From Opitutus sp. GAS368 (GTDB lineage: Bacteria > Verrucomicrobiota > Verrucomicrobiia > Opitutales > Opitutaceae), in assembly GCA_945869845.1 (NCBI GenBank), contig CAMBRG010000025.1:1-35164 (forward strand): a stretch of DNA of 35,164 bases, written 5' to 3'. The notes beneath the pieces are model-generated. The model made no database searches and had not been told where the DNA came from. It worked only from the letters and a program-made list of their open reading frames with translations. Numbering within the stretch: position 1 is the stretch's first letter; every line of letters starts with the position of its first letter. Both the position numbers and the translations under genes were made by a program. Positions 2,482-19,452 of this stretch are shown in pieces.

Positions 2482-4281
2482 CTACGACTTTGCCGGCGTC
2501 GCCGCCTTGGCTTTCGCCTTCGCGGCCTCGGCGGCTCCCGGCGGCAGATTGTCCCGGAGCGCCACAAACCGCGCCTGCGGCGCACCCGCCGGAGCGTAGC
2601 GCAGCCCGTGCTCGATCAGGAGCGCCGCGTTATCGACCGCCCCGCCGTAGAGGCACAGCACGGCCGTCTGGTAGACCAGCCCGAGCCGGCGCGGGTAGAA
2701 CTGCACTCCTTCCACCAAGATATCCAAAGTCTCCGGTTTCGCCGGGTCGGCACTGCGCACGTAAGTCTCCGCCATGAGTTCGTAGAGTTCGTTCATCATC
2801 GGCGGCTGCGTGCGCGCGACGAGCAACGGCGCGACGATCCCTTGGGTTTGGACCGACGAAAACTTTCCTTCGGCGCCGCCGGGCTGGTTCTTGGCGGCAT
2901 CGAAGCGCAGGCGGGCGAGATCCACGTAGGCCAGCGGGCGCACAACTTTTGCCGTCGTGGCGGCTTCGAGAAACTTCGCCGCCCGATCATCCCGTCCCGC
3001 CGTCCGCTCGTAGAGCCCGAGTGCGGCCAAGAGCCGTGGATCGCGTTCTCCGCGGGTGTAGGGGGCAATGAGCGCGGCCCGCGCGGCCTCGGTTTTCTCG
3101 GCCAACAACAGGGCTTCGCCTTTGATCCGGCCCACCTCCGACTCCGTGGCGTCGCGCAGAGCGAGCGGCGCCGGATCGGGAAAGCCCTCGCCCTTTTTGG
3201 CACTCCAGCCGAGCGAGGTGTAATTCGTGAAATCCAAATAACCGCGCAGCTCGAGCAACATGTCGTTGTAGCTGCTGCCGAAACATTCCTTGAAAAGCGC
3301 CTCGGTCGCCGGCTCCCGCGCCGAGCGCGTGATATACGTGACGAAACCTTTTTGGTGCCGCTTGCCGGTTTGATAGAGGCACATGTGGACAAACGCCGTC
3401 GCTTGTTTGGCCCAACGGCTGCCGATGGGATTGCGGGCGGTCGGCGAATCGTGCGTCACCGCAAACAATTCTTGAAACGACATCAGGCGTGACCGCGCCA
3501 AGGCCGCGTTGAAGTCACGGTCCTCGGCCGCCGCCGCGATCGAAACACCGCCCTCGCCCGCGGCGGCGCTGGCCTCATTGAGCATGGCGGCATTGGCCTG
3601 AGAAATCGAAACGGTGTTGGGATCTTCGAGCTTCGCGAATTCGATCATCGTGGGACTGAATTTCATGCTCATGAGGAGCTGCGCGAGTCCTTCTTCGAGC
3701 CAAGCCGCCATGCGCGGCGTATTGCGCGAGAGCAACGAATGCACGTATTCGCGGTAAAGTTGTTTGTAGGAATCGACCTCAATGAAGCCGTTGTTCTCTA
3801 CTCCGCCCGCCGCTTCCAAACCCGCCAAACCGAGTTCGCGGGTTTGCAGATCGACGATGATCGTCGAGCGCTCGGCATTGCGGAGAAACAAACTGGCCAA
3901 ACCGACCTGAGGACCGCCATCGGCCTTCACGGGGACGAATGCGTCGAACTTCCCGCCGCGACCGCAAAGAATCAACGTGGTGGGCGTCGGGCTGCGACCG
4001 ATCAGCGCCGGCCACACCACGCCGATGGCCTGATTGAACTGCTGGAAATCGCGCAGGAGCCGCTGGGTCTCGCGGTCGGAGGCGTTGGAGAGGATTTCAA
4101 AATTGGGAATCTGCGCGTGCCGCCATGACTCGGGCGGCGGCAACTCGCGGGAGTCGGTCACCGTAAAAGTCGGGAGCGAAATCGGGGCGTCTTTGGCGAC
4201 GTCTTCCGCCGCCGTGCCGACGACCGCGAGCAGCAACCAGGAAACCAACGGCCAAAGTCGAAACGAGAGTGAGAATTTCAT
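2482..4281 (-). CDS. Secreted gluzincin-like (peptidase-MA-type) protein, probably inactive
   Basis: About 599 residues. The start chosen is the ATG at 4281, because it begins directly with a signal peptide (MKFSLSFRLWPLVSWLLL, cleavage near TAA/E); an upstream in-frame ATG at 4326 would add 15 non-signal residues. After an 'LPTFTVTDSRELPPPESW' segment, residues 60-240 resemble peptidase-MA/DUF1570-like domains: a helix with REYVH (177-181) followed about 15 residues later by WLEEGLAQLL, the layout of HExxH plus EEGLAE in gluzincin proteases. The first zinc histidine is an arginine here, so catalysis is doubtful. The C-terminal third is helical and alanine-rich, suggestive of TPR-like repeats. 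It is convergent with argJ. Exact function unknown. Confidence 0.75.
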   Translation of the reverse strand: MKFSLSFRLWPLVSWLLLAVVGTAAEDVAKDAPISLPTFTVTDSRELPPPESWRHAQIPNFEILSNASDRETQRLLRDFQQFNQAIGVVWPALIGRSPTPTTLILCGRGGKFDAFVPVKADGGPQVGLASLFLRNAERSTIIVDLQTRELGLAGLEAAGGVENNGFIEVDSYKQLYREYVHSLLSRNTPRMAAWLEEGLAQLLMSMKFSPTMIEFAKLEDPNTVSISQANAAMLNEASAAAGEGGVSIAAAAEDRDFNAALARSRLMSFQELFAVTHDSPTARNPIGSRWAKQATAFVHMCLYQTGKRHQKGFVTYITRSAREPATEALFKECFGSSYNDMLLELRGYLDFTNYTSLGWSAKKGEGFPDPAPLALRDATESEVGRIKGEALLLAEKTEAARAALIAPYTRGERDPRLLAALGLYERTAGRDDRAAKFLEAATTAKVVRPLAYVDLARLRFDAAKNQPGGAEGKFSSVQTQGIVAPLLVARTQPPMMNELYELMAETYVRSADPAKPETLDILVEGVQFYPRRLGLVYQTAVLCLYGGAVDNAALLIEHGLRYAPAGAPQARFVALRDNLPPGAAEAAKAKAKAATPAKS

Positions 4282-5607: not shown

Positions 5608-5726
5608 GGGGGGACGCCCATACCACCCCCATCACTGACTTCACTTCGGGTTACGCTCGATCGTCGCCGGCTCGGAATCGTGCTCGCCCGCTCGACCGGA
5701 CCTCGTCAACTTGCCTGCGGTTCGTC

Positions 5727-5810
5727 GCTCGGGTGATGGAATGGCAGACATGCGGGTCTTAGAAGCCCGTGCCGTAAGGCGTGCAGGTTCGAGTCCTGTC
5801 CCGAGCACCA
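5727..5810 (+). tRNA. tRNA-Leu(UAG)
   Basis: A complete 84-base cloverleaf with encoded CCA. The acceptor stem GCTCGGG (5727-5733) pairs with CCCGAGC (5800-5806), followed by A plus CCA. The anticodon stem CGGGT/GCCCG encloses loop CTTAGAA with anticodon TAG at 5760-5762, decoding CUA/CUN leucine. The long variable arm (GCC-GTAA-GGC) marks it as a class II tRNA, consistent with Leu. The T arm is GCAGG-TTCGAGT-CCTGT. It ends only 10 bp from the convergent psd stop codon. Confidence 0.97.
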
Positions 5811-5820
5811 AAACGCCTCT

Positions 5821-6744
5821 TCAGCGTGGCGCGACCCCGAGGCGGTCACCCATCTTCGCGTAGATCTCAATGCAGTCGGCACTCTGGGCGAGCACGTCGG
5901 CGTCGAGCGCGATCCGGCCTTTTTGGAAAATCGTGATCACGCACGAGCCGCCGAAAGCGAACAGTCCCTTTTCGTCGCCCTTCGCGTAATCGCGGCCGAA
6001 GACGAAACTCTGGACGATGCTGCCGACGTTGGTCGCACCCACCTCTAACATCGCAACCTCCCCAAATCCCGGCGCCGTGATTACGGTCAGCGCGCGCTTA
6101 TTTTCCACCAAGTAGCCAATGTTGCGCCGGAGCGCGATGGGGCTGACGGAAAACAACCAACCGTTGATGATCTTCGCGTCGCTGGGTGTACCGCCGACCG
6201 CGAAGTGAAACCGGTGGTAGTCCACCGGGCACAGGCGCGAGATCACCATCGCCCCGCCGGCAAACTTTTGGGCGAGTACGCGTTGTTCCTCGGGCAAGGC
6301 CGCTTCGCCGAAAAGTTCGGCGAGGGTAAATTTCATCCCCTTGACGTAAAATCCTTCGACCGTGTCCACATCCTGAAAAGCGAGATGCCGGCCGTCCGCC
6401 GGGAAGATCGCCACATGGGGCTCGGGCGCGATCGGCCGGGCCTCCGGCTTCAGGGCGCGGTAGAAGAACTCGTTGAAGGTTTTGTAGTCGAACGGCGACT
6501 TCGCGAATTCATCCACGTTGAGCCCGTATTTGGTGATGAAGGGAATGATCTCCAGCGCACTGACTCGCTTGGACATTTTACGCCCATACCACTGCGAAAA
6601 CCAGGCGCGCTTCGCGAGCAGCCACACGAAGAACAATCCGGCCGGATTCTCATAAGCGAACCGCAGCCAACCCTCGCCATAGATCTGCTCGATCTTGAGG
6701 GCCTTTTCGTAGCGGTCGTAGTAGCGGATGGGTGCGGCGGACAT
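5821..6744 (-). CDS. psd: Phosphatidylserine decarboxylase proenzyme
   Basis: Membrane-associated pyruvoyl enzyme converting phosphatidylserine to phosphatidylethanolamine. The ATG at 6744 (MSAAPIRYYDRYEKAL) is chosen because it matches the start of the long-type family (PIRYYNRxTG-like, followed by IYGEGWLRFAYENP); the open frame runs on to 6966 but the extension is basic and unlike the family. The 308-residue product has PxDGR (PADGRHLAF), the VDYHRFHFAV histidine motif and the processing site FGGSC with Ser267 as pyruvoyl precursor. The usual threonine after that serine is a cysteine here. It is convergent with the tRNA-Leu gene and divergent from the RAYT gene. Confidence 0.94.
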   Translation of the reverse strand: MSAAPIRYYDRYEKALKIEQIYGEGWLRFAYENPAGLFFVWLLAKRAWFSQWYGRKMSKRVSALEIIPFITKYGLNVDEFAKSPFDYKTFNEFFYRALKPEARPIAPEPHVAIFPADGRHLAFQDVDTVEGFYVKGMKFTLAELFGEAALPEEQRVLAQKFAGGAMVISRLCPVDYHRFHFAVGGTPSDAKIINGWLFSVSPIALRRNIGYLVENKRALTVITAPGFGEVAMLEVGATNVGSIVQSFVFGRDYAKGDEKGLFAFGGSCVITIFQKGRIALDADVLAQSADCIEIYAKMGDRLGVAPR

Positions 6745-6862
6745 CACCCAACGGTCACGCATCAGGGCACGGGCGCAAAGAAGAAATCGCGCGATGGGAA
6801 CCGTGCTACAAAAACGAGACCGGATCGACTCACGAACCGATGCATTTAAAAAGGCGAATTCC

Positions 6863-6913
6863 GGCGACGGGGGCGTCGCCGCTCCAGATCTGGAGAAGCG
6901 ACGCCCCCGTCGC
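6863..6913. repeat. REP pair a (GGAG-type BIME)
   Basis: Left unit GGCGACG-GGGG-CGTCGCC followed by GCTCC (6863-6885) is mirrored by GGAG-AA-GCGACGCCCCCGTCGC (6892-6913). Each unit is itself a 7-bp palindrome next to a GGAG tetranucleotide, and the two face each other around CTCCAGATCTGGAG. This is the architecture of a bacterial interspersed mosaic element. It lies 51 bp upstream of the RAYT gene. Confidence 0.85.
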
Positions 6914-6964
6914 GTGGCCATCACGTTGGTTTGCCTTGGCCCGACCGCGGCACTGTCGTTTCCC

Positions 6965-7429
6965 ATGATGGAGCGCCCGCATTTACCCCACCTCCAGCCC
7001 TCGATCCGTCAACCGATCGTCTTCCTTACGGTCGTCACTCATGAGCGCAGACCCATTTTAGCCTGCGCTCCTGCTTACGAAATCCTGCGCTCCATTTGGG
7101 CGAACTCGCCGTCCCTCGATGGTTGGACCGTCGGCCAATATGTTCTGATGCCGGACCATGTTCACCTCTTCGCTCGGGCCGCCACGGACGCCAAACCACT
7201 GGCACGCTGGGTTCAAACTTGGAAATCACTCAGCAGTCGCCGGCTGGCGGCGGACCTAAAAATCACCCCGCCTATTTGGCAGAAAAACTACTTCGACCGA
7301 TTTCTACGTTCGGCGGACAATTATGGAGAGAAATGGAACTACGACGCAGCGAATCCCGTCCGCAAGGGCTTGGTCTCAACGGCTGAGACTTGGTCATGGC
7401 AGGGCAAGATGGAGGATTTGACGTTCTAA
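6965..7429 (+). CDS. REP-associated tyrosine transposase (RAYT, Y1/IS200-like)
   Basis: 154 residues from the ATG at 6965 (MMERPHLPHL); the frame is open upstream to 6728 but that stretch crosses REP pair a and the psd start, so it is not coding. The HUH motif is MPDHVHLF with His65 and His67. The candidate nucleophile is Tyr126 in NYDAANPVRKGLV, the typical 'YxxxNPVRxGLV' ending of this family. Members nick and rejoin single-stranded DNA at REP palindromes. REP pairs lie 51 bp upstream and 9 bp downstream, and three more pairs occur within 4.5 kb, so the gene probably recognises these elements. It appears intact: no frameshift, and both catalytic motifs present. It is a single-copy domesticated-type gene rather than a typical IS, since no terminal inverted repeats are seen. 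Confidence 0.88.
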   Translation: MMERPHLPHLQPSIRQPIVFLTVVTHERRPILACAPAYEILRSIWANSPSLDGWTVGQYVLMPDHVHLFARAATDAKPLARWVQTWKSLSSRRLAADLKITPPIWQKNYFDRFLRSADNYGEKWNYDAANPVRKGLVSTAETWSWQGKMEDLTF

Positions 7430-7438
7430 TCCATCCCT

Positions 7439-7502
7439 GCGACGGGGCCGTCGCCGCTCCAGATCTGGGCTCCAGATCTGGGGACGCGACGCCCTCGTCG
7501 CG
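7439..7502. repeat. REP pair b, with internal 13-bp tandem duplication
   Basis: GCGACGGGGCCGTCGCCGCTCC (7439-7460) faces GGGGACGCGACGCCCTCGTCGCG (7480-7502). The spacer contains GCTCCAGATCTGG twice in tandem (7456-7468 and 7469-7481), where pair a has a single copy. It begins 9 bp after the RAYT stop codon. Confidence 0.85.
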
Positions 7503-7577
7503 TTACGCTGTTTTGCTTTAGCCGAACTCACATCGCGCGGCACGAATCCGGCGTTCGCGCCTTTGCTTAGGAATCCC

Positions 7578-7631
7578 GGCGACGAGGCCGTCGCCGCTCC
7601 ACCTTTCTGGAGACGCGACGCCTTCGTCGCG
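7578..7631. repeat. REP pair c
   Basis: GGCGACGAGGCCGTCGCCGCTCC (7578-7600) and GGAGACGCGACGCCTTCGTCGCG (7609-7631) flank an 8-base spacer. Compensated differences from pair a (GAGGCC centre) keep the unit palindromic. It lies just past the 3' end of the DUF1592 gene. Confidence 0.85.
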
Positions 7632-7654
7632 TTGGCCTCGCCGCGCGGGCCAAC

Positions 7655-10126
7655 TCACCTCGACCGGAAAATCTCGCTGGTCAGGGACTCGAGGATGAGA
7701 GCGCGGAGGCCGTAACTATCTTTCTTCGCGGCTTGGAAAATTTCGTCGATCAAGGCTTCGTCGATCCCCTCCATCCGACGGCCCGTCGCATAGCTGAGAA
7801 ATTCCCTGATGAGATGGCGGGTAAAAATATCGGTCCGGCTCGCACCCAAAATAGTCTTAAAATCATAAAAACCCGCGTAGGTCTCACCGGAGCCAAACTC
7901 GCCGGTGGCATCGATCTTCGGCGCGGGCGCGTCGCCCTTGGGCTTGGGATAAGTTGTGCGCCAACGACCAATCGGGTCGAAGTTTTCCAAGCTGAACCCG
8001 AGCGGATCAATCTTCCGATGGCACTCGGCGCAGGCTTGGTCGGCCCGGTGTTTCGCCAGCCGCTCGCGAATCGTGGTGGCTCCGGTCACGTCCGGCTCAA
8101 TTACCGGGACCACATCCGGTGGAGGCGGAGGCTCGATTCCAAGGATGTTTTCCGAGACCCACACGCCGCGCGTGACCGGCGATGTTTCCACCCCGTTCGC
8201 ACTGACCGTGAGCACTCCGGCCATGCCGAGCAGTCCGCCCCGCTGCCGATTACCCGCGATGCTCACCCGCTGGAAACCGTCGGCCAGGCGGAGCGTTTTC
8301 TGCTCCGGCAGGCCGTAATGCTTGGCCAGACGCTTGTCGGCAAAGGTGTAGTCGGCGTCGAGAAACTGCCGCACCGGTCCGTTCTCCTTCAACAGGTGCC
8401 GGAAGAAGAGTCGCACCTCCGTCTTCATCGCCTCCGGCAGATTTTCGGCGTAATACACCCGCGCCGATTCCCGCGCCGGCGGCTGGCTGCCGAGGTCGCG
8501 CAAATTCAACCAGGCATCGACAAACGCATTTACAAATCCCCCAACTCTGCCGTCGGCAAGCAGACGCAGGGACTGCCGCTTGATCTCGTCGGGCGAAGTG
8601 AGTTTTCCGCTCGCAGCGGCGGCCAGCAGTTCATCGTCGGGTGGCGCCCCCCACAGTGTATAAGAAAGCCGCGACGCGAGATCGTAGGGGCCGAGCGCGG
8701 TTTCCTTCTCGTCCGTAACTTCGCTAAAATAGAGAAACGACGGCGAGCACAGCATCATCTTCACCGTATCGAGCGCGGCCTGCCGCGGCGTCGCCTGTTC
8801 TTCGAGCTGCAGGGCGTAAGTTTTCCGGATCACCGCGCGATCGGCGTCCGTCAGCGGTCGGCGATAAGCGCGGGCACCGAAGGCCTCGAGCTGATTGAGC
8901 GCGCGCTCCGTCTGAAAGCCGCCTTCGCCGAACACGGCGATCTCCTCTGCCCTGCCGCCGGGCTCGGCGACCGGACCGGAGACCTTGATCTCACCGATGC
9001 GGATGTGCGGGAGTTTCCCTTCCTGCAGCAGCAGCGTGCGGCCGACGTTCGACTTGGCGGATCGTCCTTGGAAATCGGCCGCATAACGTTTGTTGATCTG
9101 GATGACGGCCGAGCGGGACTCGTAAGGCCCGTTGGGGAAAATGAAACGCGGGGTCTGCCCGGCTTCGAGCCACACCCGGAATTTAAGCCACTCCGGTTTG
9201 TCATCGGGCACCACGGCTTGCGCCAGTAGTGGTTCGATCGCCTGCGGGTAATGGATGTGATTTTTGGTCGCGTCGCCGGGGACGATCCCGAGCAAAAAGG
9301 GCTCGGAGAAATCGATCCCGAAAAGCGCCGGATCATAGTGCGTGTCTCGGTGCATGGCCTGGACCAGCACCTCCAGATCGTAGAGTCCGGAAGCCGGCAC
9401 ACCTTTGAGGAAATCCTCGATGTGCCCGTAGCCGCCTTGGCGCGTATCCGTGTTCGGCTGCTCGTAAAGGCACAGAAATTTGTTGTTGAAGGCCGCCTTG
9501 TGCGAACCCGTCAGCTCCTCGTATTGCACAAAATTGCCCGTGAAGTGCCACGACTGCGGCGGCGTCTCCGGCCGCCCGAGCCGGGTCTCGACGAGGCGGT
9601 TGGCCGATTGGAAATACTGATCCAGCAGAAAGCCCGAGGTGATGAGCGACTTCCCGATGGTATCAATCGGCTCGCTCGCCTTTTCCTTGGGAAAATCGGC
9701 CGTCAGGCCGAGCGTGTCCACCCGGCGGCCGAAGAGGGTCACGAGCGTGTTCTCATATTCCCGGTTTGAAAGTCGCCGCATCACCGTGCGCGCCGCCGTG
9801 CTCTCGATTTTGCCCCGGGTCGTCGCGATCCCTGCCCGCAGCAGCCGGATCACGGCGAGCATCTCGTCGTCGCTCGGCTGGCGCTCCGCCTTGGACGGCG
9901 GCATCTCGCCCAACGTGATTTGGTCGATCATATCCTTCGCGTCGATCAAGTCCGCCTCGGTCGCGAGCGGCAGCTTGAAGTTCGCAAAGGTACGGTCGCC
10001 TTTCTGGTGCTCATCGTCATGGCACTTCAAGCAGTAGGTGCCGACGAACTGCGACAGCGCCTTAGATTCGGCCGATTCGGCCGCCCGAAGGGAGCCTGCG
10101 GCTAGCGCGAGAATGACCCAGCCCAC
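7655..10126 (-). CDS. Secreted planctomycete-type c cytochrome, DUF1592 family
   Basis: About 823 residues from a GTG at 10126, which places a signal peptide at the N-terminus (VGWVILALAAGSLRAAES). An ATG at 10216 is the alternative, but the added 30 codons run through REP pair d and look non-coding. A haem site YCLKCH lies just after the signal, and a second, CAECH, lies in the C-terminal third followed by KIDPLGFSLENFDPIG. The order matches PSCyt1/DUF1587, DUF1595, DUF1592 (PYDLASRLSYTLWGAPPDDELL), DUF1588 (GVLTVSANGVETSPVTRGVW) and DUF1585. The protein should be an extracytoplasmic haem protein; the biochemical role of the family is not established. It follows the DUF1552 gene on the same strand, its usual partner. 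Confidence 0.88.
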   Translation of the reverse strand: MGWVILALAAGSLRAAESAESKALSQFVGTYCLKCHDDEHQKGDRTFANFKLPLATEADLIDAKDMIDQITLGEMPPSKAERQPSDDEMLAVIRLLRAGIATTRGKIESTAARTVMRRLSNREYENTLVTLFGRRVDTLGLTADFPKEKASEPIDTIGKSLITSGFLLDQYFQSANRLVETRLGRPETPPQSWHFTGNFVQYEELTGSHKAAFNNKFLCLYEQPNTDTRQGGYGHIEDFLKGVPASGLYDLEVLVQAMHRDTHYDPALFGIDFSEPFLLGIVPGDATKNHIHYPQAIEPLLAQAVVPDDKPEWLKFRVWLEAGQTPRFIFPNGPYESRSAVIQINKRYAADFQGRSAKSNVGRTLLLQEGKLPHIRIGEIKVSGPVAEPGGRAEEIAVFGEGGFQTERALNQLEAFGARAYRRPLTDADRAVIRKTYALQLEEQATPRQAALDTVKMMLCSPSFLYFSEVTDEKETALGPYDLASRLSYTLWGAPPDDELLAAAASGKLTSPDEIKRQSLRLLADGRVGGFVNAFVDAWLNLRDLGSQPPARESARVYYAENLPEAMKTEVRLFFRHLLKENGPVRQFLDADYTFADKRLAKHYGLPEQKTLRLADGFQRVSIAGNRQRGGLLGMAGVLTVSANGVETSPVTRGVWVSENILGIEPPPPPDVVPVIEPDVTGATTIRERLAKHRADQACAECHRKIDPLGFSLENFDPIGRWRTTYPKPKGDAPAPKIDATGEFGSGETYAGFYDFKTILGASRTDIFTRHLIREFLSYATGRRMEGIDEALIDEIFQAAKKDSYGLRALILESLTSEIFRSR

Positions 10127-10137
10127 ACGCCGGACTA

Positions 10138-10195
10138 GAGCCGCGGTGCCTCCGTCGCGTTTACCCCGCGAGCGCGACGGGGGCGTCGCGGCTCC
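10138..10195. repeat. REP pair d, in the leader of the DUF1592 gene
   Basis: GAGCCGCGGTGCCTCCGTCGCG (10138-10159) and CGCGACGGGGGCGTCGCGGCTCC (10173-10195) form a long imperfect inverted repeat of the same family as pairs a-c. It fills about half of the 118-bp gap between the DUF1552 stop and the chosen DUF1592 start. It could stabilise or attenuate the upstream transcript. Confidence 0.8.
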
Positions 10196-10244
10196 AGCCA
10201 GCCAACCGAAGTGCATCGGCGAACGAAAATTTACGGGCCCCACG

Positions 10245-11537
10245 TTACGACACTCCGAAACGGCCGGTGCTGTTACCGAACGACTCCGTTTCGACCCCCA
10301 TGCGCTGGGCGAGGTCGACGTAAAGATTGCACAACGGCACCTTGTTCGAGCCGGTCGCGGGCAGCCTCTTGAATTCGCCATGGCGATAGCCACCGCCGGC
10401 GAGCACGATCGGGAGGTCGGAGTTTTTGTGCGAATTCGCATCGCCGATCCCACTGCCGAACAGCACCGCCGTCGAATCAAGCAAGGTCCGGTCTCCGTCC
10501 TCGATTTTGGCGAGGCGCGCGATGAACTTGGCGAACTGCTCGATCTGATAGTTCTCGAGCGTTATGAGGTGTTTGATCGCGGCCTCGTCGTTGCCGTGAT
10601 GCGAAAGTCCGTGATAGGATTTGTCGATGCCGAGGTCCTGCGGCAGGAAATCGCCGCCGATTTCCAGCGTGGCGATCCTCGTCGAATCGGTCTGAAGAGC
10701 CAAAGCGATCAATTCATAGAGGATCGGCAAATTCTGGACCTTACTTTTGTTCTCGGGCCGCTCGAAGGGTGGCTTCGGCTTGGGCAGGCCGGCCCAGCGT
10801 CGACGCAGTTCGAGGCGTTTTTCAACATCACGAATCGAAGTGAAATATTCGTCCAGCTTGTCCTTGTCCTCGCGGTTGACCTGCTTGGAGAGCCGATTCG
10901 CGTCCGCCAATCCCGCGTCGAGAATGGAAGCCTGCAAACGGTTCTCTTGGTTTCGACGGGCCAAGCGTTCTTGGGAATCGCTGGCAAAGAGCTTATCGAA
11001 CAAATCCGCCGGGCCCGTGATGGGTGGCACGCGGACGCCGGACTTCGTCCATGCGATCTGGCAGCCCCCGTGGATGCCGCCTTCGGAACCCACCGTCAGC
11101 GACGGAAACCGGGTCTGGTGTCCGATCTCGTCAGCCATGAACTGATCGATGGAGACATTCCCGGTGGGACGGCTCTGCGCCTCGGAGTTGAGCACGCCGG
11201 AGAGAAAGGAATGAACCGCGAAGTGCCCGCCCTTGATGCCATGATCGAGCCCACGGTAAACGGTCAGGTTTTTACGCACATCCCAAAGCGGCTTGAGCAA
11301 CGTCGTCTGCTCGTAGGCCGAACCAGTCGTTTCCGGGAAAAAGTGCTTCGCCTGATAACCCAGCAAATTGCCGACCGCGACAAATCGACGTGTTCCCGCT
11401 CCGGCGCCCTTCGCCGACTGCACCGCCGAGTTACCGCCGACCGCGCTGGCCAGGAGCGAAGGGAGCGACGGGAGCGCGAGCGTCGCGCCAAGAGACTGGA
11501 GAATGAAACGTCGGCGATTCATGGGGTTCATGCTCAT
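10245..11537 (-). CDS. Tat-exported DUF1552 protein
   Basis: About 430 residues from the ATG at 11537 (MSMNPMNRRRFILQSLGA); ATGs at 11531 and 11522 are also possible and would keep the twin-arginine signal. The signal has NRRRFILQSLGATLALPSLPSLLAS, a typical Tat n- and h-region, so the protein folds, or binds a cofactor, before export. Conserved blocks include GNLLGYQAKHFFP, YRGLDHGIKGGHFAVHSFLSG, SIDQFMADEIG and LLDSTAVLFGSGIGDANSHKN, characteristic of DUF1552 (PF07586). Members are almost always next to DUF1592 cytochromes, as here. The fold is thought to relate to the alkaline phosphatase/sulfatase superfamily. Function unknown. Confidence 0.88.
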   Translation of the reverse strand: MSMNPMNRRRFILQSLGATLALPSLPSLLASAVGGNSAVQSAKGAGAGTRRFVAVGNLLGYQAKHFFPETTGSAYEQTTLLKPLWDVRKNLTVYRGLDHGIKGGHFAVHSFLSGVLNSEAQSRPTGNVSIDQFMADEIGHQTRFPSLTVGSEGGIHGGCQIAWTKSGVRVPPITGPADLFDKLFASDSQERLARRNQENRLQASILDAGLADANRLSKQVNREDKDKLDEYFTSIRDVEKRLELRRRWAGLPKPKPPFERPENKSKVQNLPILYELIALALQTDSTRIATLEIGGDFLPQDLGIDKSYHGLSHHGNDEAAIKHLITLENYQIEQFAKFIARLAKIEDGDRTLLDSTAVLFGSGIGDANSHKNSDLPIVLAGGGYRHGEFKRLPATGSNKVPLCNLYVDLAQRMGVETESFGNSTGRFGVS

Positions 11538-11680
11538 GGGTGTATCTAAGAAGCGGGTGGGTGAACGGGGCTTGGCCGTCTTGGGTCTAACACAACTGAA
11601 CCCGGGCAGACGCGCGGGGCAAGGAGATCGTTGCGGGAAAAACGCCGACAATCGGCTCCCATTTATCCCGGAAATCTCGT

Positions 11681-11740
11681 GGGGACGCGACGCCCCCGTC
11701 GCGTTTCAGTCGCGAACGGCGACGGGGGCGTCGCCGCTCC
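11681..11740. repeat. REP pair e
   Basis: GGGGACGCGACGCCCCCGTCGCG (11681-11703) and GGCGACGGGGGCGTCGCCGCTCC (11718-11740) face each other with a 14-base spacer. The orientation of the units is outward compared with pairs a-c. It lies between clpB and the DUF1552 gene. The remainder of this 290-bp spacer shows no other clear signal. Confidence 0.85.
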
Positions 11741-11827
11741 AGTCGGAACAAGATCTCGGGAAATCCTTAGCCCGGTGCGCGCTCCGGCTAACGGTTAAAG
11801 AGCACCGGACCCTCTTCGCCTTCGTCT

Positions 11828-14437
11828 TTACTTCTTCACGGTTTTCGCGGGCTGGACCCGCGTCAGTCCGTCGTCCTTGACCATAAATGTGACCGTGGAG
11901 CCCTCCTCCACTTCGCCGGCAATGAGTCCGCGGGCGAGCTGCGTCTCGATGTGGCGTTGCAGGAAACGTTTCAGCGGCCGCGCGCCGAAGACCGGGTCGT
12001 AGCCTTTTTCGGCCGCCCAGTCTTTCGCTTTTTGGTCCAGCACCACGGTCACGCGGCGGTCGGCGAGGCGCTGGTTGAGATCCGCCAACAGGAGATCCAC
12101 GATGCTGGTGATTTCCTCCAGCGTAAGCGGCTTAAACAGGATCGTCTCGTCGATGCGGTTGAGAAACTCCGGCCGGAACGCTTTGCGCAGTTCCATCATG
12201 ACGCTCTCGCGCACGCTTTCCGGAATCGTGTCGCCGGTCACGCCTTCGAGGAGGAAGCGCGAACCGAGGTTCGAGGTCATGATGATGACGGTGTTCTTAA
12301 AATCCACGGTGCGGCCCTGCGAGTCGGTGATGCGGCCGTCGTCCAGGACTTGGAGCAGCACGTTGAACACGTCGGGATGCGCCTTCTCGATCTCGTCGAA
12401 GAGGATCACCGCGTAGGGCTTGCGGCGCACGGCCTCGGTGAGCTGGCCGCCCTCGTCGTAGCCGACGTAGCCCGGAGGCGCGCCGATCAGCCGCGAGACG
12501 CTGTGCTTCTCCATGTATTCCGACATGTCGATGCGCACCAGCGCGCCTTCGGTGTCGAAGAGCGTCTCGGCGAGCGCCTTCGCCAGCTCGGTTTTGCCCA
12601 CACCCGTGGGGCCCAGAAACAGAAAACTTCCGACCGGACGCCGCGGGTCCTTGATGCCGCTGCGGGCGCGGAGAATCGCCTCGGTCACCAGCGTCACGGC
12701 CTCGTGCTGGCCGATCACGCGTTGGTGCAGCACGTCTTCGAGGCGCAGGAGTTTGTCCTTCTCGCCCTCGACCAGACGCGTGACGGGCACACCGCTCCAT
12801 TTGGAGACGACTTCGGCGATTTCCTCCTCCGAAACCTCTTCCTTGAACAAGGTCGTCTGCTCGCGGCCCTTCTTCTCCAGCTTCTTCAACTCCTCTTCCA
12901 TCTGCGGGAGTTTGCCGTGGCGGAGCTCGGCCACCTTGTTGAGGTCGTAACCGCGCTCGGCTTTGTCCATCTCAATGCGGGTCGCGTCGATTTCCTCGCG
13001 GAGTTTGCGGGTTTTCTGGACCGAGGCTTTTTCTTTTTCCCAGTGGAGTTTGATGCCCTTGGATTTCTCGCGCGCCTCCGCGAGTTCGGCGCGAAGCGCG
13101 TCGAGCCGGCGCTTGCTGGCGTCGTCTTTCTCCTTCGCCAGCGCCGTTTCCTCGATTTCCAGGCGGAGGACCTTGCGGGTGAGTTCGTCGAGTTCCTGCG
13201 GCATCGAGTCCATCTCGGTGCGGATCATCGCGCAGGCTTCGTCCATGAGGTCGATCGCTTTGTCGGGCAGAAATCGGTCGGTGATGTAGCGATTCGAGAG
13301 CGTCACGGCGGCGACGAGCGCGTTGTCCTGGATGCGCACGCCGTGGTGCAGCTCAAAGCGCTCTTTGATACCGCGCAAAATCGACAACGCGTCCTCGACC
13401 GTGGGCTGGTCAACGACGACGGGCTGGAAACGCCGCTCAAGCGCCGCGTCCTTTTCAATGTGTAGCCGATACTCGTCGAGCGTGGTCGCGCCGATGCAGT
13501 GCAGCTCGCCACGTGCGAGCATGGGTTTGAGCAGATTCCCCGCGTCCATCGCGCCCTCGGTCTTGCCGGCGCCGACGATCGTGTGGAGCTCGTCGATGAA
13601 GAGAATGATGCGGCCATCGGCTTGTTTCACCTCGTTGAGCACAGCCTTGAGACGTTCCTCGAATTCGCCGCGATACTTCGCGCCGGCGACGAGCGAACCC
13701 ATGTCCAGGGAGAAGATCGTCTTGTCTTTCAGGCCCTCGGGCACGTCCCCGCGCAAAATGCGCTGCGCGAGGCCTTCGACGATGGCGGTCTTACCCACGC
13801 CGGGCTCGCCGATGAGGACGGGGTTGTTTTTCGTCTTGCGGGAAAGAATCCGGATCGTGCGGCGAATCTCCTCATCGCGACCGATGACGGGATCCATTTT
13901 CCCTTTGCGCGCCTGAGCCACGAGATCGACGCCGTATTTCTCCAGGGCGGCGTAAGTCGCCTCGGGGTTGTCGGTGGTGACGCGTTGGTTGCCGCGCACG
14001 TCCTTTAGGGTCTTCAGCACTTTCGCCCGATCCAAGTCGAAACTCTTGAAAAGTTTTTTGAGGCTCTCGGGCTTGGCCACATCGAGCAGGCCCAGCAGGA
14101 GATGCTCGACGGAGACAAAATCATCCTTGAGCGACTTTGCCTCCTCTTCGGCCCGGGTGAGCACATCGTTGAGGGCCTGCGTGACGTAGATTTTCGAGGT
14201 ATCGACGCTGCCCGTGACTTTTGGCAGGCGCTCCAGCTCGCGGTCCACCGCGAGCGCGAGTGCGGCGGCCGTGAGGCCAAGTTTGTCGACGATACCGGAG
14301 ACCAGCCCGTTCTCCTGCATGAGCAACGCGGAGAGCAGGTGCCAGGTATCCACCTCGTTGTGGTTGAGCCGACGGGCGACGTTTTGCGCGTCGGTGACAG
14401 CCTGACGCGACATTTGGGTGAGTTTGGCGGTGTCCAT
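11828..14437 (-). CDS. clpB: ATP-dependent disaggregase ClpB
   Basis: Hexameric AAA+ chaperone that threads aggregated proteins together with DnaK. The 869-residue length is normal. The N-terminal Clp-N repeats (residues 1-145) are followed by AAA domain 1 with Walker A GEPGVGKT (210-217) and Walker [10 protein letters not shown], then the long coiled-coil middle domain (about 410-530, Lys/Glu-rich), AAA domain 2 with Walker A GPTGVGKT (near 610), Walker [11 protein letters not shown], and the C-terminal small domain ([15 protein letters not shown]). The middle domain identifies ClpB rather than ClpA/ClpC. Transcribed alone; the upstream 207 bp include a GTAG-type REP pair and a GGGACCATTTTGTCCC palindrome, but I see no convincing heat-shock promoter. 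Confidence 0.97.
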
Positions 14438-14583
14438 AATGATGATCTATCGCACGCCCTACGCCAAATTGCGATGGGGTGATTTCCCCCGCACCGCTCC
14501 GCCGCGCCGCCGAACAAGGCGCGACACTGGGACAAAATGGTCCCGTGGGTTGGGTCAAAATGCAGCGGGGCGCGGTTCCGCCG

Positions 14584-14648
14584 GTAGGAGCCCGCTGGCG
14601 GGCGATTTTCCGCTGCGCCGCACGCATCGCGCGCAAGGGCGCTCCTAC
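14584..14648. repeat. GTAG-type REP pair overlapping the DUF1501 stop codon
   Basis: GTAGGAGCCCGCTGGCGGGCGAT (from 14584) is opposed by an inverted unit that, read on the minus strand from 14648, is GTAGGAGCGCCCTTGCGCGC. Each unit is a GTAG tetranucleotide plus a GC palindrome, a different family from the GGAG-type copies. The TAG of the right unit is the stop codon of the DUF1501 gene. Confidence 0.75.
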
Positions 14649-16123
14649 GCCAAAATCGCGCGCACGACGTGAGCCTCCTCGACGCCGGTGAGGCGCGCGT
14701 TGAGGCCGCGGAAGCGATGGGTGAACCGTGCGTGATCGATCCCGAGACAGTGCAGAATCGTCGCGTGCAGGTCGCGCAGGTGCACCGGATTCTCCGTAAT
14801 GTTGTAGCAGAAATCATCGGTCGCGCCGTATTCCATGCCGCCTTTGATGCCGCCGCCGGCGAGCCAAACGGTGAACGCCCGACCATGATGGTCGCGTCCA
14901 CTGTTGGGGTCGCCCAGTTTGCCTTGGCTAAAGACGGTGCGGCCAAACTCGGTCGCAAACACCACGAGCGTGTCCTCCAACAGACCGCGCTGTTTTAAAT
15001 CCCGGATCAGCGCGGCGGTCGGCTGGTCGATGTCGCGGCATTGGTTCGGCAACTGCCGGGCCATCGCGATGTGTTGATCCCAGCCCCGGTGAAAGAGCTG
15101 CACGAAGCGCACGTCCCGCTCGAGCAGCCGGCGGGCGAGCAGACAATTGGCCGCGTAACTGCCGGGCTTTTTCACCTCGGGACCGTAGTCGGCCAACGTC
15201 GCGGCCGATTCCTGACTGATATCAGTCAACTCGGGCACGGAGGTCTGCATCCGAAATGCCATCTCGTAGGCGTCGATCCGCGCCACGGTCTCCGGATCAC
15301 CGAGCTCGGCCGCGCGGCGGTGGTTGAGTTTCGCCAGATCGTCGAGCATCGCCCGGCGTTGGGGGCGGTCCACGCCGGGAGGATTGTTGAGGTAGAGCAC
15401 GGGGTTGGCTCCGGCCCGCAAGCCGACGCCTTGGTGCGAGGCGGGGAGAAATCCGCTGCTCCAAAGACGGGAGAAAATCGGCTGGCCGGGGTTTTTCCCC
15501 GTGCCTTGCGAAACCATCGCGATGAACGCCGGGAGATTTTGGTTCTCCGTGCCTAGACCGTAGCTCGCCCAAGCCCCCATGCTGGCATAACCGGGCAACT
15601 GATTACCCGTGTTCATGTAGGTGATCGCGGGGTCGTGGTTGATCGCCTCGGTGTGCAGGCTTTTGATGATGCAGATGTCGTCCGCAATCGTCTGAATATT
15701 GGGCAACAGATCGCTGATCCACGTGCCATGTTTGCCACAGCGCTTGCCGGTCATCAGCGGCGGCACGACCGGAAACGCACTCTGGTTGCTCGTCATACCG
15801 GTGATGCGCTGTGTGCCCTTGATCGAGGCAGGCAAGTCGAGCCCGGCATGCCGGTGCAGCATGGGCTTGTCGTCGAAGAGATCGACGTGCGAGAGGCCGC
15901 CACTTTGAAACAGACAGAGCACGCGCTTCGCCTTGGGCGCGAAATGCGGCAGACCGAGCAGCCCCTTTCCGACCGCCCCGCCGGCCGCGCCGGGCGCACC
16001 CAACGCGAGGGCGAGGTCGGATGAAAGCAGGGCGCCGAGCGCGACGCCGCCGATCCCGCGGGCGTTACGACCGATAAAGGTGCGACGGGTAAGATGACGG
16101 AGGTAATCGTGAGCCGGTTGCAT
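14645..16123 (-). CDS. Tat-exported DUF1501 protein
   Basis: 492 residues with an N-terminal Tat signal (LTRRTFIGRNARGIGGVALGALL). Typical DUF1501 (PF07394) blocks follow: VLCLFQSGGLSHVDLFDDKP, the GKRCGKHGTWISDLLPN region, MGAWASYGLGTENQNLPAFI, the VRFVQLFHRGWDQH block and VVFATEFGRTVFSQGK. The family belongs to the alkaline phosphatase-like superfamily and sits beside DUF1549/DUF1553 cytochromes throughout Planctomycetes and Verrucomicrobia. Its start codon lies 2 bp after the upstream cytochrome stop, so the two are translationally coupled. Its stop codon is donated by a REP element. The biochemical function is not established. Confidence 0.9.
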   Translation of the reverse strand: MQPAHDYLRHLTRRTFIGRNARGIGGVALGALLSSDLALALGAPGAAGGAVGKGLLGLPHFAPKAKRVLCLFQSGGLSHVDLFDDKPMLHRHAGLDLPASIKGTQRITGMTSNQSAFPVVPPLMTGKRCGKHGTWISDLLPNIQTIADDICIIKSLHTEAINHDPAITYMNTGNQLPGYASMGAWASYGLGTENQNLPAFIAMVSQGTGKNPGQPIFSRLWSSGFLPASHQGVGLRAGANPVLYLNNPPGVDRPQRRAMLDDLAKLNHRRAAELGDPETVARIDAYEMAFRMQTSVPELTDISQESAATLADYGPEVKKPGSYAANCLLARRLLERDVRFVQLFHRGWDQHIAMARQLPNQCRDIDQPTAALIRDLKQRGLLEDTLVVFATEFGRTVFSQGKLGDPNSGRDHHGRAFTVWLAGGGIKGGMEYGATDDFCYNITENPVHLRDLHATILHCLGIDHARFTHRFRGLNARLTGVEEAHVVRAILA

Positions 16124-16125
16124 GG

Positions 16126-19100
16126 TCAGTTGCGGGTGATGGTTTCACTCAAGTTGAAGAGTAGCGATGCGACTTGGGTCCAAGCCGCGTGCTCCGTCGG
16201 CCGGAGACGTTCGTCCCGGGGCGACTCACCGACCGCGAGCAACGCGAGCGCGGCCGGGGTGTCTTTGGCATAGTGCTGACGTTCGCGCCGCAAGGCCGAC
16301 TCGATCACGCCGAACTCGGCGGCCTCGGGCGGCCGGGAAACCGTCGCGGCAAAAGCCCAGCGCAAGCGCGCCGCATCGTCGCCCGGCTGGGCGAGCACCC
16401 GTTCCGCCAACACCCGTGAGGCTTCGACGAATTGGGGGTCGTTCAACGTCACCAGTGCCTGCAGCGGGGTGTTCGTCGTGCTGCGCGCCACCGTGCAGAC
16501 CTCGCGGTTGGGCGCGTCGAAGGCGGCCATATTCGGCGGTGACGCCGTGCGCTTCAAATACGTGTAGAGCGAGCGCCGATAAAGTTTCTCGCCGTGATCC
16601 TGCACAAATGTCTGCGCCGTCGCCGGGGTGCTCCCATAATGGCTGACCTCGCGCCACAGGTCGCCGGGCGCATAGGGATTCACGCTCGGTCCGCCGAGTC
16701 GCGGCACCAGCAGGCCGCTGACGGCTAGCGCCTGATCGCGCACAAACTCCGCCGGCAGCCGGAAACGCGGCCCGCGCGCCAGCAGCTGATTGGCCGGGTC
16801 GGTCTCCAATTGCCCGGCGGTCGCGGCCGAGCTCTGGCGATAGGTCCCGCTCGTCACGATCAACCGCACGAGGCGCTTCACATCCCAACCGCTCTCGACG
16901 AAATCAACCGCGAGCCAATCGAGCAGCTCCGGGTGCGTGGGCCAATCGCCCTGCAAACCAAAATCGGCCAACGTGCCAACCAAGCCCTCGCCAAAAAATA
17001 ATTTCCAAATGCGATTCACCGCGACCCGGGCCGTGAGCGGATTTTCCTTCATCGTGATCCATTGCGCGAGCCCGAGTCGGTTCTGCGGCGCACCGGCTGG
17101 CATCGGCGGCAGCGCGCCGGGGGTGCCTACCTCGACCTTTTCCCCGGGCTGCGCGTAGTCGCCGCGGTTCAATATAAACGTGTCGCGCGGAGCCGCGGCG
17201 ACGGCCATGACCATCGTCGGAAACGGCTCGGTGAGCGCGGCCAATTGCTCGCGGGCATTCGTGAGCTCAATCCGGTCCCGCCCCAACTCCGTCGCCTGGT
17301 GAGCGCACTGCGCCCAAAGGGTCGCCGTCGCCTCGGGCGGACGCGTCGCCGGGGCCAACGCCAGCGCGTCCACCACCGCGGCCGGCAGATCCGTGCCATC
17401 GTCGGTGCCGGTGACCACGGCGACTTGAATCAAGCCCGGCAGCAAGGCGCGCCCGGCACCGAAGCCGAGTTGAAAGTTTAAGTAAGGCCCAGCCCCTTGG
17501 CCGAGCGGCTTGACCAGCGTGGCGGTGAGATGCACGGGGCCGTCGGTCGCAGGATCGGGAGACCAACCCGAATCACTGCGCCGGTCGAGGCAGCCGACGG
17601 CGGGATGCTCCGCTTCCCACGAACTGGCGGTCACACGGGCAAAGGTCTCGAGTTTATTCACGTCAACCTGATCACCGGGCAGCGCGCCGATGGACGCGTC
17701 GATGGCCGTAAGTTTGAAGGTGCCCTTTTTCAACGGCTCCGCGGGGTCCGGGACGGCCGGGCCGGGCGCGGGTGGCGGGGAGGTTTTGAGGCGCGTGCCC
17801 TTGCCCCAGCCATTAAGTGGGAACTCCGCCACCGGATGGATCGTGACGCGCAGGCCGGTGATCGGGCGGTCGGTCTTCGGGAGTTCGGCCAAGATATCAA
17901 ACGCGGCGAGATCGCCGCCGCGAATAACCCTGACGCGGTCGTCGCCCACGATCTCGAGCACCGAAGCGTTCGGCGTCGAAACTTTCATCACCTTCACCGG
18001 CAACACTTGGAGATCGCGGCCGCGCTCCGCGAGCCGCGCCCGCTCGCGCGATTCCCAGGCGCCGAGCACCGCGGGATCGGGCTGCGCGAGCTTGGCTTCG
18101 AGTGCCGCGATGCGCGCGCGCAGCACGGGCTGAGCGTTGGTTTTCAGCACGGTGCGGGCGCGGACAAACGGTCCCGGATTCACCCCGCCGTTGCCGTCGA
18201 GCCCTTTGTCGCCGAGCGAATTGAAAAATGCGAACGTGCGGAAATAATCCTTCTGCGTGATCGGATCGAACTTGTGATCATGGCACTGGGCGCAGGCGAG
18301 CGTGAGCCCCAACACGGCCTCGCCGAGGGTTTTGACGCGGTCGGCGTTGTAGTTGGTCAGGTTCTCTTCGGGAATCGTGCCGCCCTCGTGGGTGACCATA
18401 TTGTTGCGCTGAAATCCGGTCGCAATCTGGTCGGATTCGGTGCGATTCGGAAGCAGATCACCGGCAAGTTGCGTCGCGAGAAAGCGATCGTAGGGCAGAT
18501 TATCGTTGAACGCCTGGATCACCCAATCGCGCCAGAGCCAGAGGTGCCGGCCGCCGTCGATGGAGAATCCGTTGGTGTCGGCGTAGCGCGCGGCGTCGAG
18601 CCAATCGAGCGCCAGCCGCTCGCCGAAGTGCGGGCTCGCGAGCAGGCGATCAACGAGCCGCTCGACGGCGTGCGGCGCGCGATCGGCAGCGAAGGCCTCG
18701 ACTTCCGCGAACGAGGGCGGGAGTCCCGTGAGATCGAACGCCAGCCGACGAATCAGCGTGCGGCGATCCGCCTCGGGCGCGGGCCGGAGTTTCTGCGCGG
18801 CGAGCTGCGCCTGCACAAAGGCGTCGATGGCCTGCACACCGAGCGGGAGAGAACCAACAAGCCCACTCGATTGCTTTCGCTCCTTCTCCCCCTCTCCCCC
18901 TCTCTCCTTCTCTCCTTCTCCAGCAATCGGCAGAGCCGATTTCCGCGGCGCGACAAACGCCCAGTGCGCGGAATACTTCGCACCGGCCTCGATCCAGAGT
19001 TTGATTTTTTCCTTCTGCGCGGCCGTGAGCTTGGAATGGGAATCCGGCGGCGGCATCACTTCGTCTTCGTCGGGGCTGATGATCCGGAGCCATGCCTCGC

Positions 19101-19433: not shown

Positions 19434-19452
19434 CGACGAAGCGTCGCGCTCC
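19434..19452. repeat. Solitary, decayed GGAG-type REP
   Basis: CGACGAAGCGTCGCGCTCC is, on the minus strand, GGAG followed by CGCGACGCTTCGTCG. This matches the half-unit of REP pair c (GGAGACGCGACGCCTTCGTCG) with a few differences. It lies between the sulfatase and cytochrome genes; no partner unit is visible in the 183-bp spacer. Confidence 0.5.

Follow-up and report, generated by a model that had tools for sequence, protein, structure and literature searches.

A RAYT gene amid REP repeats with a variant GGAG head in Opitutus sp. GAS368

REP-associated tyrosine transposases (RAYTs), also known as TnpA-REP, and the REP hairpins that accompany them have been described in several systems comparable to the one considered here. 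The group 3 TnpA-REP REPtrons of Stenotrophomonas (Sm) and Marinomonas (Mb) combine a small RAYT carrying a conserved D at the E100 position with inverted pairs of a perfect short palindrome (8 bp in Sm), which has a small loop, follows directly after a GTAG tetranucleotide and has a CT beside it, the dinucleotide at which characterised RAYTs cut (PMC8266576). In E. coli, the RAYT (solved structure 4ER8) is likewise a chromosomal gene, flanked by BIMEs, and the stem of its REPs is bulged. Its C-terminal tail, which contacts GTAG, is missing in group 3; furthermore, the E. coli enzyme accepts no change in GTAG, a change of base 2 of the Sm guide (GCAG) makes cleavage barely detectable, and attempts to retarget both enzymes have failed (PMC8266576). 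By the published definitions, a REP hairpin has GT[A/G]G at its foot (PMC2817692, PMC3686654, PMC6006769), and one report puts degenerate heads such as GYAG on record (PMC3733652). Since the published genome survey looked for GTAG and GTGG heads alone, GGAG families would escape it (PMC6006769). RAYTs have been considered little studied in the phylum of the present organism, Verrucomicrobiota, which is only half right: the same earlier report describes Opitutus terrae as very rich in GTAG REPs, with several REP families in the genome, one of them mutated to GTGG, and mentions no GGAG family in the text consulted (PMC3733652).

In this paper, we describe a RAYT gene and its surrounding repeats in a window that comprises the whole of contig CAMBRG010000025.1 (C25; 35,164 nucleotides) of the Opitutus sp. 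GAS368 assembly (3.62 Mb, 219 contigs, 83% complete). The gene (6965..7429, plus strand) is an intact ORF encoding 154 amino acids, and its start residue is the same in the 72% and 63% identical homologues. It sits between psd, encoding phosphatidylserine decarboxylase (PF02666; 5824..6744, minus strand, start near 6744), and a DUF1592-type gene; a tRNA-Leu at 5727-5810 adjoins the 3' end of psd, an Rfam scan of the window returned nothing but one tRNA, and planctomycete-type cytochrome families occur among the gene content. The protein scores 91.5 bits (cut-off 80) with the NCBI REP-associated tyrosine transposase model NF047646 and is also matched by the Y1_Tnp domain in a profile search; with the IS200 model NF033573 it reaches 27 bits, far under the cut-off of 55. 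Among solved structures, 4ER8 is the best sequence match, and in the alignment to it H65-V-H67 falls on the HUH motif, Tyr126, of catalytic type, pairs with Tyr115, and the equivalents of W94, Q95, R104 and N119 are conserved; the second His and the Tyr are invariant across the homologues of a 98-row set. A modest AlphaFold model (pLDDT 67.5, built from three sequences) has a fold that matches Y1 transposases and 4ER8. Inverted REPs stand on both sides of the gene, as they do in the RAYT/TnpA-REP family, to which it belongs. We regard the locus, with a probability of about 0.85, as a REPtron, in which a Y1/HUH transposase encoded on the chromosome, and probably domesticated, is surrounded by copies of the REP that serves as its substrate. 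REPtrons are a known kind of system, and one other member of the phylum has already been reported to have them; the GGAG head makes the present one a variant.

Each unit consists, head first, of GGAG, an 8-bp stem arm, CCC(C/T) and a second 8-bp arm. The first-pass annotation had placed an intact RAYT between REP pairs 51 bp upstream and 9 and 149 bp downstream, and these coordinates (6864-6913, 7439-7501 and 7579-7630, respectively) were confirmed, with a chance expectation of none. The upstream pair is made up of the units 6862..6885 (minus strand; GGAG-CGGCGACG-CCCC-CGTCGCCG) and 6892..6915 (plus strand; GGAG-AAGCGACG-CCCC-CGTCGCGT, with one outer mismatch), whose heads face each other and which fold together at z -7.4. 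Downstream, the inner pair is formed by 7437..7460 (minus strand; core 7439-7460, 9 bp past the RAYT stop) and 7480..7503 (plus strand; GGGG head), and the outer pair by 7577..7600 (minus strand) and 7609..7632 (plus strand). Two further pairs had been claimed: the one at 11681-11740, at the 3' end of clpB, holds, with units at 11681..11704 (plus strand; GGGG head) and 11717..11740 (minus strand), while at 10.1 kb a unit at 10172..10195 (minus strand; core 10174-10195) is accompanied by a first member, at ~10136-10158, that is degenerate. The heads point inward in the pairs flanking the RAYT and outward in the 10.1- and 11.7-kb pairs. A decayed single unit (19434..19452, minus strand; GGAG, 5-bp stem, 3-nt loop) is also present as annotated, the shuffle expectation for this 5-bp form being 0.04. 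The nine intact cores of the window share the palindrome GCGACG-N4-CGTCGC with GGAG or GGGG heads. The first-pass annotation needs correcting in that the stem includes the two positions that follow GGAG, and is thus an 8-bp stem that starts directly at the head. In third-order Markov shuffles of the window, a head-bearing core was found in 0 of 200 and the bare palindrome at a mean of 0.05; a loose fuzzy scan (up to four edits) was discarded, as it gave hundreds of chance matches.

The repeat is amplified across the genome, in which a search allowing at most one mismatch found 50 units, compared with 1 for a reversed-pattern control, and 33 of the 34 distinct repeat sites examined fall outside called genes, which take up 81% of the DNA. 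At the two outermost positions of the stem, which were left free in the search, the bases vary as AC/GT, CG/CG or CC/GG, and 54 of 60 cells show pairing, compared with a mean of 29.7 and a maximum of 47 on shuffling. A T stands immediately 5' of the head in all 30 units, and a CT in 19 of these 30 (4.5% expected). Of the features by which REPs are defined, a short palindrome, many copies, intergenic placement and arrangement in pairs are found here, and a tandem array is present as well. The array, on contig C75 (L148; 6290-6918), has REP pairs in tandem at ~115-bp spacing with conserved spacers. The genome contains five RAYT-like genes, of which this repeat flanks only the one in the window; the RAYT on contig C44 (L180, near 3834-4256), 42% identical, is flanked to either side by GTAG-AACCGACC repeats of its own. 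The genome therefore contains a GGAG and a GTAG system at once and, like that of O. terrae, has several REP families. In the small size of the RAYT and its conserved D, the perfect palindrome with its small loop directly after the tetranucleotide, the inverted pairs and the neighbouring CT, the locus resembles the group 3 REPtrons, and it is unlike E. coli in that the stem has no bulge; it differs from group 3, and from what is described for O. terrae, in the head.

Among 44 units recovered by a search with the head left as G..G, the head was GGAG in 40, GGGG in three, GTGG in one (a non-REP loop) and GTAG in none. As the family lacks the GT[A/G]G head, a published defining feature, we file it as a variant; the first-pass annotation had seen the GGAG head and missed its departure from the published one, and a literature search of incomplete coverage found no description of a GGAG head. 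In the protein, the segment W105-Q-K-N-Y-F-D-R112-F113-L-R115 aligns with the guide-contact region of the E. coli RAYT, in which H101, the counterpart of residue 112, contacts the guide (PMC6006769), and where E. coli has H101-A102 the window RAYT has R112-F113. On a tree of 98 RAYTs from the family and the class, with heads called by hand from hairpin lists, head base 2 changes four times, compared with 31 times under shuffled labels. All 58 RAYTs with GT heads have H at residue 112 and one of I/L/V/A at residue 113 (A once). Of the 39 with GG heads, 31 have R or T at residue 112; at residue 113, the GG RAYTs have F/Y in the clade of the window gene and Q/R in a second clade. A rule fixed beforehand (F/Y/Q/R at residue 113 for GG, I/L/V/A for GT) was correct in 37 of 37 held-out loci from other classes of the phylum, for which an automatic head caller was used, and is obeyed by two more loci, one in an acidobacterial MAG and one in a kiritimatiellal MAG. 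Overall, residue 113 agrees with head base 2 at 136 of 136 RAYT loci, a set from which G292b (Leu113) was excluded because its head register is ambiguous (GGAG or GAGG), and which would have one exception if that locus were scored GG. Residue 112 as the sole determinant was correct in 35 of the 37 and is refuted by RAYTs that combine R112 and Leu113 with GTAG; a universal residue-113 rule is refuted by a distant DHR-type subfamily (H112-R113) with GTAG heads, and the rule is therefore local to the subfamily of the window RAYT. A kiritimatiellal RAYT (L339, 1908-2666) carries a proline-rich in-frame insert that resembles translated REP DNA (DGVEPVPP repeats).

From this association we tentatively propose, at a little less than even odds, that GGAG REPs form a large unlisted class in the phylum, that residues 112-113 set guide base 2, that the RAYT-REP code has co-changed, and that GGAG and GTAG systems can operate side by side within a single genome. 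A strong competitor, which we also hold to fall just short of an even chance, and which targets the specificity part alone and leaves the REPtron itself unaffected, is that the association reflects shared ancestry, specificity being set by other residues or by the loop and stem, with GGAG merely tolerated. The combined tree has about three head changes, one of them forced by well-supported branches, so that the association is not statistically independent of ancestry; several further alignment columns differ between the clades, and the distant subfamily shows Arg113 together with GTAG. Against descent as the full explanation, residues 112-113 belong to the stretch by which the E. coli enzyme touches the guide (PMC6006769); one GG clade has F/Y and the other Q/R, while I/L is found in a GT clade nested among them; and the RAYTs L362 and L370 combine R112, Leu113 and GTAG.

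The position of the gene bears on a second alternative, namely that the RAYT and its REPs move as one block, as insertion sequences do, and that the block inserted here into a REP pair already in place, which we consider unlikely. In five genera (G000, G010, G240, G092 and G173), psd is the positional anchor, with the RAYT upstream of it and transcribed in the opposite direction, and the other anchor, clpB (11828..14437, minus strand, in the window), faces it in these genera wherever the region extends far enough; the same locus and orientation in five genera argue for long residence. The congener G226 (psd 95%) lacks the RAYT: in a blastn comparison, 5658-6919 and 7576-16129 of the window match and overlap on a single 60-bp REP pair, and 6920..7575 (656 bp, the RAYT and the inner downstream pair) is absent. 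Exactly one pair thus stands where the window has pair-RAYT-pair-pair, and mobility would make this the pre-insertion site. Deletion by recombination between the pairs 6862-6915 and 7577-7632 would, however, be expected to yield an identical junction; the direction is unproven because insertion into a pair gives the same product, and we infer that G226 lost the gene, as opposed to never having had it. Mobility would also fit the closest homologues in G230, G081 and G079, which are at other loci, so that the gene must have moved or been exchanged at times, and the other RAYT subfamilies (40-44% identical, GTAG) that adjoin psd and/or clpB in G225, G229, G174 and G069; in G225 and G229 a different RAYT (40-41% identical, GTAG repeats) occupies the same place. 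On the other side, no identical second copy of the RAYT was found in the 83% complete assembly, the next best being 42% identical, and RAYTs are published as mostly single-copy and vertically inherited (PMC8049555, PMC6006769). The locus shares with IS200/IS605 the Y1 HUH fold and hairpins with a guide tetranucleotide, which in those elements form the ends; unlike them, it has dispersed solitary repeats and a gene fixed at one locus in five genera. The psd/clpB vicinity is a recurrent RAYT site, with nine loci including the window, of different subfamilies and in either orientation; regions homologous to 5658-16129 of the window are L137, L138, L139, L140, L141, L144, L146, L189 and L190. The DUF1592- and DUF1552-type genes between the RAYT and clpB (7655-11651) are found at this spot in the window and G226, and not in G225, G229, G010 or G240.

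We compared 252 genomes of the family. The RAYTs most similar to that of the window (61-72% identical) come from seven other genomes, in which the gene lies between repeats of the same general kind; hairpins flank 49 of 50 family RAYT loci; and the GCGACG repeat occurs in 6 of 8 genomes with a RAYT at least 60% identical, compared with 50 of 244 others (Fisher p = 0.002). G010, G173 and G240 have the stem core GCGGCG..CGCCGC, a paired change. The stem type beside the RAYT is also the commoner one in the genome, namely GCGACG in G000 (40 vs 1), G081 (78 vs 0) and G092 (60 vs 15), and GCGGCG in G173 (22 vs 2) and G240 (9 vs 0); in G010 the two types are mixed. The first-pass view that the RAYT is embedded in its own REP family is borne out by the NF047646 score and by the flanks of its close homologues, and its proposed genome-wide search for the unit revealed the amplification given above. 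The expected relation between copy number and RAYT presence was recovered as an enrichment among carriers, while a one-to-one relation is rejected by repeat-rich genomes with no cognate RAYT: orphan repeats number 83 in G174 (complete, one contig), 23 in G082, 17 in G025, 14 in G061 and 12 in G015, and none of the RAYTs checked in these five genomes is flanked by the repeat. Abundance in relatives without the RAYT, which had been named as telling against the pairing, is thus found in part, and what had been called a clear enzyme-substrate pairing is less clear than that. The only GGAG-type RAYT found in G174 (L220, 1657-1803) has its N-terminal part missing, and its own flanking stem differs (GCGGCCG). 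For repeats without a RAYT in Pseudomonas and Stenotrophomonas, RAYT loss is the published explanation (PMC3686654). That the RAYT is a bystander, positionally associated with hairpins kept for transcription ends, RNA stability or gyrase binding, would account for the orphan repeats, for the many repeats between convergent or co-directional genes and for the terminator-like look of one unit, but it is highly improbable, as the repeats accompany just one of the five RAYTs plus its homologues across genera, the asymmetric head, the loop and the preceding CT are strand-specific and unneeded by a terminator, and the RAYT clade predicts head base 2.

Under the REPtron reading, the RAYT probably copies these hairpin repeats, and comparison with the characterised enzymes suggests how it might do so. 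It would bind the strand that carries the head, with the REP folded as a single-stranded hairpin, and the beta4 segment (residues 105-115, residue 113 being a candidate contact) would read the GGAG guide at the base of the 8-bp stem; H65 and H67 would hold the metal, and Tyr126 would cut at the CT usually found just 5' of GGAG. Units, singly or in pairs, would then be copied to intergenic sites by strand transfer, the gene itself staying put in the long term. Guide base 2 may have gone from T to G in this lineage along with the guide-contact segment, and recombination between flanking REP pairs would delete the gene and leave one pair, with orphan repeats persisting.

What specialists may find worth pursuing is the altered head, the way it matches the guide-contact segment, and the empty site at which a single pair remains. 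Natural RAYT-REP pairs that differ at guide base 2, and for which the candidate residues are few, would make guide choice testable by a two-residue swap, and the one-pair site in G226 offers a concrete route by which a RAYT may be lost and its repeats turn orphan.
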